Shown here: positions 10,145-38,867 of the stretch, one piece after another
Position numbering within the stretch: the first letter of the stretch is position 1
How the letters are laid out: every line of letters starts with the position of its first letter
Assembly: GCF_000337375.1 (NCBI RefSeq)
Contig: NZ_AOJG01000020.1
Span: 1-53,281, forward strand
Length of the DNA: 53,281 nt
DNA from: Halorubrum lipolyticum DSM 21995
GTDB lineage: Archaea; Halobacteriota; Halobacteria; Halobacteriales; Haloferacaceae
Direction: 5' to 3'
Notes under the pieces: model-generated
Databases searched by the model: none
What the model was told of the DNA's origin: nothing
Seen by the model: only the letters and a program-made list of their open reading frames with translations
Program-made: the position numbers and the translations under genes

Positions 10145-10212
10145 GAATTTCGAGTCTTAGGCGCTCGGGCTCGATATCGGGAGTGGGTATAGCGAATTGG
10201 TGAAACGATTAT

Positions 10213-10457
10213 TTGTAAGCGATCGAGTGACGTTGCTGTCGGCTGTTTATACGTGATCGACGCTTCTGCGGTGAACACCTCCAAAGCCCCAGCCGTGAGG
10301 ATGGCCCTTTGAGTCCCACCCCGCACCGCAACCGCACAGCCTCACGCCTCCCCAGCCTCGTCGGTCGCCGGAGGCGACCGACTCCCTCGTGCGGGCTGCT
10401 CGCGCCCGGTGGGCGCTCGCAGGCGCACGCCACCGCCCTCGTTCAGTTATAAGCGAT
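10213..10457 (-). repeat. dispersed structured intergenic repeat, copy A
   Basis: This occupies part of the 600-nt gap 10145-10745. Read on the minus strand it contains GAGGCTGGGGAGGCGTGAGG, a GC-rich middle with GGTTGCGGT, then CGGCTGGGGCTTTGG and GTTCACCGC with TCGATCAC. The same order occurs on the plus strand near 38.6 kb (copy B). A 10-bp-stem hairpin (10360-10382, loop GGA) sits just before the GAGGCTGGGG block, where copy B has a different palindrome. The copy is bounded by near-identical direct repeats TTGTAAGCGAT (10213-10223) and TTATAAGCGAT (10447-10457). It codes for nothing convincing. It is a non-autonomous mobile repeat or a structured RNA gene. The rest of the gap, 10458-10710, shows no gene. 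Confidence 0.8.
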
Positions 10458-10710
10458 TGTCGCCGTCACTCTCGGCTTTTAAATACCTCATCGCTACCGA
10501 CGAACTACAACACCCGCTCCCGATCTGCTTCATCACACACAAGCCGATCGAAGTCGGGTCGCGCCCGAGCCGCGAACCGGCCCTCTCGAGACGCAAATCG
10601 ACGGCGGTACAGATCGATTAACCGCTCGGTCCCGCCAAAACGCCAAACCGCTGGGACAGCGCCGTTAACCCGAATACAATCCGGGTAAAACCGGCTTAAC
10701 CGAGTTCCCT

Positions 10711-10718: not shown

Positions 10719-10745
10719 GGTAACGGTGTCACGACCCGAGTGGAC

Positions 10746-12104
10746 ATGAGCAAACGCACGATTGGCCTGCTGTTGATCGCGGTCGTCGCGCTCGGCGCGA
10801 TGACCGGCGTCGCGGCCGCCGAGGGCGACCTCGGCGTGGCCGTCGACAGAGGCGCGGACGGGGCATCGACGGTCACGGTGACCGAGAACGACACCGCGGT
10901 CGAGAACGCCACCGTCAACGTGAGCGTCGTCGACCCCGCAAACGAGTCGTACGCGGGAGCGGGCGAGTACGAGACTGACGCGAACGGTACCGTCGACCTC
11001 GACGCCCCCGAGGAGGACGTGACGGTGAACGTGACGGCGAGTAACGGGAACGACACCGCGTCGACGACGGCCGACCTCGAGGCCCCCGACGGCCTCGAAC
11101 TCGACGTCGAGGACACCGACGGCGAGCCGGTCGTCACGGTGACGGACAACGACACCGCGGTCGAGAACGCCTCGGTGAACGTCACCGCGGCCGACGAGAA
11201 CGCCACGTACCTCGGCGCGGGCGACTACGAGACCGACGCGAACGGTACCGTCACCCTCGACGCCGCCGAGGAGGACGTGACGATCGACGTGACGGCCGAG
11301 TACGAGAACGACTCCGTCACGGAGACGGTCGATCTCGAGGTCCCCGAGGGGCTCGCAGTCGACGTCGAGAACACCAGCGGTGAACCCGTCGTCACGGTCA
11401 CCGACGACGGCGAGTCCGCCGAGAACGCCTCGGTGAACGTCACCACCGCCGACGGTCAGAACGTCACCTACGTCGGCGCGGGCGACTACGAGACCGACGA
11501 GAACGGCACCGTCACCCTCCCGGCCGCCGAGGAGAACGTCACCGTCGACGTGACCGCCGAGTACGAGAACGACTCCGTCTCGACGACGGTCGACCTGGTC
11601 GCCGAGGGCGGCGAGGCCGACGAGGACCAGCCCTTCGGCCAGCTGATGCAGGACTTCATCGACCGTCTGCAGGACCGCGAGGGCGGCATCGGCGCCGCCG
11701 TCTCCGACTTCGCGACGGAGAACAACCCGGGGAACGCCCCGGACCACGCCGGGAACCCGGGCGGCCCGGACGACGCGGGTAACGGCAGCGACGCGGGCAA
11801 CGCGAGCGACGGTCCCGGTAACGCGCCCGACCACGCTGGCAACGGGAACGACGGCGAGCAGGGGCCGCCGGACCACGCCGGTCCGGGCGGTGACGACGGC
11901 GACGCGAACGAGAGCGACGACGACCAGGGACCGCCGAGCGACGCCGGCCCGGACGCCGACGAGAGCGACGAAGAGGACGGGGACGACGCCGACGCGGAAG
12001 GCGATGACGACGACGCGGAAGGCGGCGATGACGACGACGCCGGGAACGGCCCGGGAAACGGCAACGGGCAGGGCAACGGTAACGGCAACGGCCCCAATAA
12101 CTGA
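10746..12104 (+). CDS. secreted repeat protein with N-glycosylation sites and acidic tail
   Basis: The protein has 452 residues. A Sec signal peptide (KRTIGLLLIAVVALGAMTGVAAA) is followed by three tandem beta-rich repeats of 86-87 residues, roughly 28-290, each with VTVT, the core ENASVNVT, YxGAGxYETDxNGTV and DVTAEYENDS. Each repeat holds several N-x-S/T sequons, as expected for a glycosylated surface protein. A short helical segment (GQLMQDFIDRLQDREGG) leads to a ~150-residue Gly/Asn/Asp/Pro tail ending NGNGNGPNN. No C-terminal membrane helix or PGF anchor motif is present, so it is probably released or bound non-covalently. Repeats resemble Ig-like adhesin modules, but no family is certain. 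An in-frame GTG at 10740 would add two residues. Confidence 0.85.
   Translation: MSKRTIGLLLIAVVALGAMTGVAAAEGDLGVAVDRGADGASTVTVTENDTAVENATVNVSVVDPANESYAGAGEYETDANGTVDLDAPEEDVTVNVTASNGNDTASTTADLEAPDGLELDVEDTDGEPVVTVTDNDTAVENASVNVTAADENATYLGAGDYETDANGTVTLDAAEEDVTIDVTAEYENDSVTETVDLEVPEGLAVDVENTSGEPVVTVTDDGESAENASVNVTTADGQNVTYVGAGDYETDENGTVTLPAAEENVTVDVTAEYENDSVSTTVDLVAEGGEADEDQPFGQLMQDFIDRLQDREGGIGAAVSDFATENNPGNAPDHAGNPGGPDDAGNGSDAGNASDGPGNAPDHAGNGNDGEQGPPDHAGPGGDDGDANESDDDQGPPSDAGPDADESDEEDGDDADAEGDDDDAEGGDDDDAGNGPGNGNGQGNGNGNGPNN
10825..11610 (+). repeat. three tandem 258-261 bp coding repeats
   Basis: The block GTCACGGTG or its variant starts at 10872, 11133 and 11391, so the unit is 261 then 258 bp. 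The second and third units are most alike. They encode the three beta modules of the secreted protein and could recombine to change copy number. Confidence 0.85.
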
Positions 12105-38511: not shown

Positions 38512-38533
38512 CCGGGCGGTGTCAGGAGGTTAT

Positions 38534-38867
38534 TTATAAACGGCGTGAGCGATCGCGACCATCGTTTATAAAAGAACGAGCCGTCGGCGCGTGCCCACGA
38601 GCGGCGCGCGCGAGGGAGCCCGCGACGGCGTTTATAAACGCCGTCGCGGCGAGGCTGGGGAGGCGTGAGGTGTGGGGCGGTTGCGGTCGGGCGGTCCTCG
38701 CGGCTGGGGCTTTGGGGATGTTCACCGCGGAGAAGTCGATCACGCACTGTCGAGCGGCTGGCTTCGGAGGAGTTCGCTGTCGATCCGCCAAAAACCGGTC
38801 ATACGCAAGCGGCTGAGGCTTGGAGGCGTTCGCCCAAGAACCGCCGGCAACCACTTATAAACGGGCG
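38534..38867 (+). repeat. dispersed structured intergenic repeat, copy B
   Basis: This fills most of the 436-nt gap 38512-38947. The core 38610-38743 matches copy A: CGAGGGAG, a palindrome, GAGGCTGGGGAGGCGTGAGG, GGTTGCGGTC, CGGCTGGGGCTTTGG, GTTCACCGCGG and TCGATCAC. In copy A the middle holds about 14 nt absent here. The copy is bounded by direct repeats TTATAAACGGCG (38534-38545) and TTATAAACGGGCG (38855-38867); a further TTTATAAA occurs near 38565. No translated frame looks protein-like. Mobile repeat or structured RNA gene. Confidence 0.8.
38620..38649. repeat. 30-bp perfect palindrome in repeat copy B
   Basis: Fifteen bases on each side of the centre (38634/38635) match perfectly, with TTTATAAA in the middle and CCGCGACGGCG/CGCCGTCGCGG arms. 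The sequence corresponds in position to the 10-bp hairpin in copy A. It could form a cruciform or RNA hairpin, or bind a dimeric protein. Confidence 0.9.

Follow-up and report, generated by a model that had tools for sequence, protein, structure and literature searches.

A structured, apparently mobile intergenic repeat family in Halorubrum and other haloarchaea

Results

Two copies of the repeat in a 53-kb window

The window analyzed here is a stretch of 53,281 nucleotides from Halorubrum lipolyticum DSM 21995 (assembly GCF_000337375.1, contig NZ_AOJG01000020.1), and it carries two copies of a repeat in opposite orientations, copy A on the minus strand (10171-10524) and copy B on the plus strand (38533-38860), with the features collected in Table 1. 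A sequence-only reading of the window had proposed that the two copies share several blocks in the same order, and this is borne out by GAGGCTGGGGAGGCGTGAGG, CGGCTGGGGCTTTGG and GTTCACCGC, the last of which lies at 10268-10276 (minus strand) in copy A and at 38720-38728 (plus strand) in copy B. Palindromes with unlike stems are likewise found between GGGA and GAGGCTGGGG in both copies, and the TTRTAAGCGAT repeats said to flank copy A are present at 10212 and 10447. The proposed limits of 10213-10457 proved too narrow, as the element reaches further and copy A sits inside a MITE-like unit bounded by TIRs; an end of the element at the TTRTAAGCGAT repeats is not established, these being one layer of a nested structure.

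Elsewhere in the window, a unit of ~258 bp is repeated three times in tandem at 10857-11596 (65-86% alike) inside the gene at 10740-12104, a predicted extracellular repeat protein. The only Rfam matches at gathering score across the window were three tRNAs, and the region around copy A (10150-10520) gave a single chance-level match to sR9 and nothing else. The RNA fold of copy A is not unusually stable (z = -0.19), and folding energy, not being significant, was left unused as evidence for this copy.

Table 1 Features of the two copies of the repeat in the window.
Copy	Feature	Position	Strand	Remark
A	TIR of MITE-like carrier, 3' side in element orientation, TCGATATCGGGAGTGGGTAT	10171-10190	.	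In relatives, these TIR pairs stand at the ends of empty as well as filled copies
A	Right (3') AT boxes: GTATAAAC and TTACAAA	10212-10252	-	
A	Near-terminal palindrome GGTGTTCACCGC	10268-10279	-	
A	P3 remnant: GGGACTCAAAGGG ... CGGCTGGGGCTTTGG; long inner arm deleted in this copy	10281-10316	-	CGGCTGGGGCTTTGG itself at 10281-10295
A	Invariant core box GAGGCTGGGGAGGCGTGAGG	10340-10359	-	
A	Hairpin P2 (GTCGGTCGCC/GGCGACCGAC), the palindrome of the sequence-only reading	10360-10382	-	
A	Invariant GAGGGA linker	10383-10388	-	
A	Hairpin P1: outer stem GCGTG..CGCAC; inner stem CTGC-GA-GCGCCC/GGGCGC-GA-GCAG with tandem G-A	10389-10428	-	
A	Left (5') TTATAA box, one of the direct repeats of the sequence-only reading	10447-10452	-	
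A	TTTAAA box, ~32 nt upstream of left TTATAA; possible TATA box of a carrier promoter	10478-10483	-	Sequence; 32-nt spacing peak in MITE-type copies
A	Partner TIR, 5' side in element orientation, reverse complement ATCGGGAGCGGGTGTTGT	10507-10524	.	
B	Pair of TTTATAA boxes at the 5' end, spaced by 32 nt	38533-38571	+	
B	Shortened P1, then GAGGGA	38584-38617	+	
B	Hairpin P2 (CCGCGACGGCG/CGCCGTCGCGG around TTTATAAA)	38618-38650	+	
B	Invariant core box GAGGCTGGGGAGGCGTGAGG	38651-38670	+	
B	CGGCTGGGGCTTTGG (38701-38715) and GTTCACCGC	38701-38728	+	
B	Degenerate tandem 3' units, last part TTATAA	38755-38860	+	

Anatomy of the element

Full copies are ~300-450 nt long and contain no gene. Read along the strand that bears CTGGGGAGG, the 5' part consists of a TTATAA box, ~10 nt of spacer, hairpin P1, the sequence GAGGGA, hairpin P2 and the invariant box GAGGCTGGGGAGGYGTGAGG, after which come a G-rich linker of TGCGGT-like runs, GGGACTCAAAGGGG and hairpin P3, while the 3' part is made up of GGTGTTCACCG and one to four tandem units of ~57 bp, each carrying TTATAA and another GCGRCTGGGGCTTTGG block. 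P1 has an internal tandem G-A (GA/GA), and P3 is a long hairpin enclosed by CAAAG/CTTTG and CAGCCG/CGGCTG, in the arm of which tandem G-A pairs stand between short Watson-Crick steps. P1 starts some 10-20 nt away from the left TTATAA, and a distance of ~20 nt separates GGTGTTCACC from a right TTATAA. Many copies have palindromic cassettes inserted in their stems.

A TTATAA box was found in 73 of 108 copies, mostly 14-18 nt upstream of GGTGGCG, and in ~30 copies another AT box precedes it by a further 32 nt, a second box that most copies lack; among MITE-type copies the spacing of the AT boxes peaks at 32 nt. The AT boxes upstream of GGTGGCG could be promoters.

Several loci depart from this plan. 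L248, L250 and L251 carry internal deletions, apparently from recombination between two GGCTGGGG blocks, with both element ends retained, and at L102 in another Halorubrum species the core box occurs four times in tandem with a period of 23 bp. What looked like tandem copies of 90 bp in C3, C7 and C40 contains N and repeats contig-end sequence, and was rejected as scaffold joins of no biological meaning; at L011, L013, L092 and other N-containing loci, a single N between repeated sequence likewise marks scaffold joins that mimic tandem copies.

Copy number and spread

Copies A and B are members of an undescribed intergenic repeat family of haloarchaea. When the 16-mer core box CTGGGGAGGCGTGAGG was searched with at most one mismatch allowed, 96 places were found in the 3.4-Mb genome of H. 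lipolyticum compared to 0 for the reversed control, which puts the original claim of a dispersed repeat far beyond chance. The 3' block led to ~18 more places, mostly with diverged cores or internal deletions and with both ends retained, so that the true copy number in this genome exceeds 100. The exact core box is present in all 52 Halorubrum genomes (7-160 per genome, median 58) and is patchy in other haloarchaeal genera (16/86), and a covariance-model search placed the family in 17 of 58 genera. Outside Halorubrum the P1-P2-box part is retained and the 3' part is different. One plasmid record and 10 viral contigs matched the element, and the phage collection held no matching record. Many contigs of the H. 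lipolyticum genome end inside these repeats.

We found no named family for the repeat, in Rfam or in the openly searchable literature: no Rfam family matches it, literature searches with the sequence boxes returned no papers, the boxes are absent from the text of the papers searched, and topic searches returned no account of the element.

Selection on the fold of one strand

From the unlike but still palindromic stems of copies A and B, the sequence-only reading had argued for selection on structure. Compensation cannot be shown by one pair of copies, but it is seen in a comparison of ~150. We aligned 48 5' domains (25 pairs, 1178 cells) and compared them with 500 shuffles and with slid registers. 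Standard pairs occupied 97.6% of the cells compared to 79.6% after shuffling, 17 of the 25 pairs had changed on both sides, and 179 cells with two-sided changes were observed against 50 in shuffled data. For any of five measures, no shuffle out of 500 reached the observed values, counts that are not to be read as probabilities since the sequences are related, and the slid registers were 21-51% paired. When the stems of P2 and P3 were anchored by their flanks and not by alignment, in up to 151 copies, the picture was the same, with the outer 13 bp of P3 paired in 84-100%. In type-C P2 hairpins the tandem G-A is retained in 30 of 36 copies, and the pairs adjoining it covary. Covarying base pairs, a mark of structured RNAs, are thus found by both approaches, and the contrary outcome, an absence of compensatory stem changes, is rejected.

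The mismatches in the stems are asymmetric, G-U occurring 78 times and A-C 14 times (61 versus 12 in distinct arms, p = 5e-9). Since a double-stranded cruciform would treat the two strands alike, one single strand is read, the one bearing CTGGGGAGG. Orthologous copies carry unlike stems that still pair, so stems are altered at their sites, either through compensation or through conversion by another copy. The case for selection on structure has to be qualified in one respect, as some of the stem variation is exchange of whole hairpin cassettes and not stepwise compensation. Taken together, it is strongly supported that selection acts on the fold of one single strand, the CTGGGGAGG-bearing one, while the sequence drifts.

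There are 195 distinct hairpins with a stem of at least 7 bp, compared to 29 in shuffled sequence. Among their loops are 130 triloops, nearly all closed by C-G and most often GNA (43), and GNRA tetraloops are few. Stable DNA mini-hairpins characteristically carry the c(GNA)g loop, whereas structured RNAs favour tetraloops. The loop statistics therefore lean towards single-stranded DNA, though they could also reflect how palindromes arise, and the tolerance of G-U and the tandem G-A pairs fit either RNA or DNA.

Genomic context and mobility

All copies lie outside predicted genes, with one weak overlapping gene call as the exception. Convergent genes flank 38 of 70 copies and divergent genes 5 of 70, and beside same-strand genes there is no sense bias (11 sense, 16 antisense). 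Among ~40 copies sampled in other species, both neighbouring genes were those of a copy in the H. lipolyticum genome (G000) in ~8 cases. Site A is without the element in some species, carries it in one orientation in the H. lipolyticum clade, and carries it in the opposite orientation in G004 and many others; sites B and L059 show one orientation in most species and a short intergenic gap in some. Empty alleles thus exist for all three sites. The empty sites seen for element plus flank are not exact to the base and so do not prove a true target duplication. At L187, the start of the site-B intergenic region in G004, short repeats resembling GGCGTAGACAGCGTAGAC are arrayed in tandem beside the element.

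In the H. lipolyticum genome ~20 of 90 copies, copy A included, are inside a MITE-like carrier of ~130 bp with the TIR CGATAGCGGGAGTRRGTAT, and the rest are without this TIR. The carrier also exists empty, at L254 (G014) and L255 (G016). Carriers are filled at one and the same point, CGATCGCTTATAAA, which occurs once in empty carriers and at both ends of the insert in filled ones; this may be a duplication or may come from ends that resemble the target. The presence or absence at orthologous sites, the inversion at site A, and the empty and filled MITEs indicate that the element is mobile.

An autonomous relative of the carrier TIR was absent among the matches listed in nine genomes. Within that search one candidate partner, a ~1-kb TIR pair at L256, turned out to be a filled MITE interrupted by unrelated DNA. 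At L256, L269 and L279, IS605-type (TnpB) ends, recognized by GGAGGAGGATGTCAA, adjoin or interrupt copies of the element in the manner of a landing place.

The IS200/605 transposase TnpA (Y1_Tnp) is missing from G000 and from ten other genomes with 14-109 copies, and across 52 genomes the number of Y1_Tnp genes does not correlate with the number of copies (rho -0.05). We examined 30 TnpB loci from four genomes, and not one uses the ends of the element as its own; the 3' ends of these loci are unlike those of the element, and the few copies nearby are outside the IS or interrupted by it. An IS200/605 origin, or an origin as an IS605-derived PATE, was rejected on these grounds, TnpA being absent and the TnpB ends different.

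Discussion

Few non-coding sequences in Halorubrum are as common as this repeat, and few folds that can be found within a single genome are as rich in covariation, making it a natural experiment on the constraint that structure places on a mobile repeat. If the enzyme or RNA that underlies it were found, a large share of the intergenic DNA of haloarchaea, of their genome rearrangement and of breaks in their assemblies would be accounted for.

Our best explanation, to which we would give about as much credence as to all others combined, is a non-autonomous, intergenic, PATE-like mobile repeat that is probably mobilized in trans by an enzyme acting on one single strand. The element lies between TTATAA-type boxes, with hairpins near both ends and no gene of its own, and an enzyme supplied in trans would probably act on one of its strands in single-stranded form; the multi-hairpin fold of that strand (P1, P2, and P3 with tandem G-A) is what persists as the sequence drifts and copies swap hairpin cassettes. 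Mobility would be what the fold serves, TTATAA would be the target, and the strand would act as single-stranded DNA and not as RNA; these three points we infer. No mobilizing enzyme was found, which counts against this explanation. It is odd for an active transposon that the element matches one plasmid record and no phage record, which also counts against this explanation, and its strongest conservation is in unpaired boxes, which a role in RNA or in protein binding would explain equally.

A serious competitor, though a clearly less probable one, is that the element encodes a structured non-coding RNA expressed from its own TATA boxes on the CTGGGGAGG strand, with selection on the RNA fold and the DNA copies spreading along. 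The strand-specific G-U bias, the conserved tandem G-A pairs, the unpaired invariant purine boxes and the occurrence of the same fold across genera would all suit such an RNA, and the TTATAA before GGTGGCG together with the second box could set a start just 5' of P1. However, the proximal TATA box predicts a start inside P1, the second box is lacking in most copies, triloops dominate where GNRA or UNCG loops are rare, and Rfam has no such family.

We regard it as rather unlikely that the element belongs to a new archaeal class of structured elements mobile through single-stranded DNA or a retro-intermediate, in which a strand of 300-450 nt with a multi-hairpin fold kept across the genus is spread to ~100 chromosomal sites per genome by an enzyme that responds to shape instead of sequence. 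The fold invoked by this proposal includes a helix that alternates between tandem G-A pairs and short Watson-Crick steps.

It is improbable that the covariation arose without selection on the fold, through palindrome correction at the DNA level (by template switching within hairpins) together with gene conversion among copies. The numerous perfect palindromes whose loops are 3 nt long, the exchangeable hairpin cassettes and the differences by entire hairpins between orthologous copies speak for it. Against it, correction would be expected to remove the tandem G-A mismatches of type-C P2, which are retained between covarying neighbours, and so large an excess of G-U over A-C on a single strand, in elements lying in both orientations, is not an obvious outcome of correction. 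A cis-acting end-of-gene element retained by the host (REP/BIME-like: terminator, mRNA stabilizer or nucleoid site) is very improbable, for although the copies are largely chromosomal, enriched between convergent and rare between divergent genes, and kept at the same site by many species, they show no sense bias, site A is inverted between species, and the convergent excess is equally expected if promoter insertions are purged.

Comparison with known systems

Tests with Pfam, Rfam and IS605 ends gave no membership for the element. The 58-bp intergenic promoter repeats of halovirus HF2, similar in length and AT motif, were rejected, as the text of the paper has no TTATA sequence and the phage collection had no match. 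Like the TnpB omega RNAs and HEARO-type RNAs, the element is a structured single strand tied to dispersed mobile DNA, but it has no Rfam match and is absent from the ends of the TnpB genes tested. With bacterial REP/BIME it shares ~100 copies per genome, an intergenic location, palindromes and an excess in convergent regions, but it is much longer, with a covarying multi-hairpin fold and strand-specific wobble pairs, in a genome without a RAYT-type (Y1) transposase. The copies in the TIR carrier resemble MITEs, whereas most copies have no such TIR, and the structured core is a unit distinct from the MITE.

The palindrome-associated transposable elements (PATEs) of Haloquadratum walsbyi have ends that match IS605-type transposons (PMC3119063). 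Like them, our element is short, gene-free, numerous, heterogeneous in sequence, intergenic and haloarchaeal, with near-terminal palindromes and a short oligonucleotide at both ends; both the palindromes and the lack of coding capacity by which PATEs are recognized are found. Unlike PATEs, its ends do not match those of the 30 sampled Halorubrum TnpB loci, the H. lipolyticum genome has no TnpA, and its body of 300-450 nt has three covarying hairpins and invariant boxes conserved across genera. PATEs are the closest description available, one that fails in origin and that the element nevertheless resembles in behaviour.
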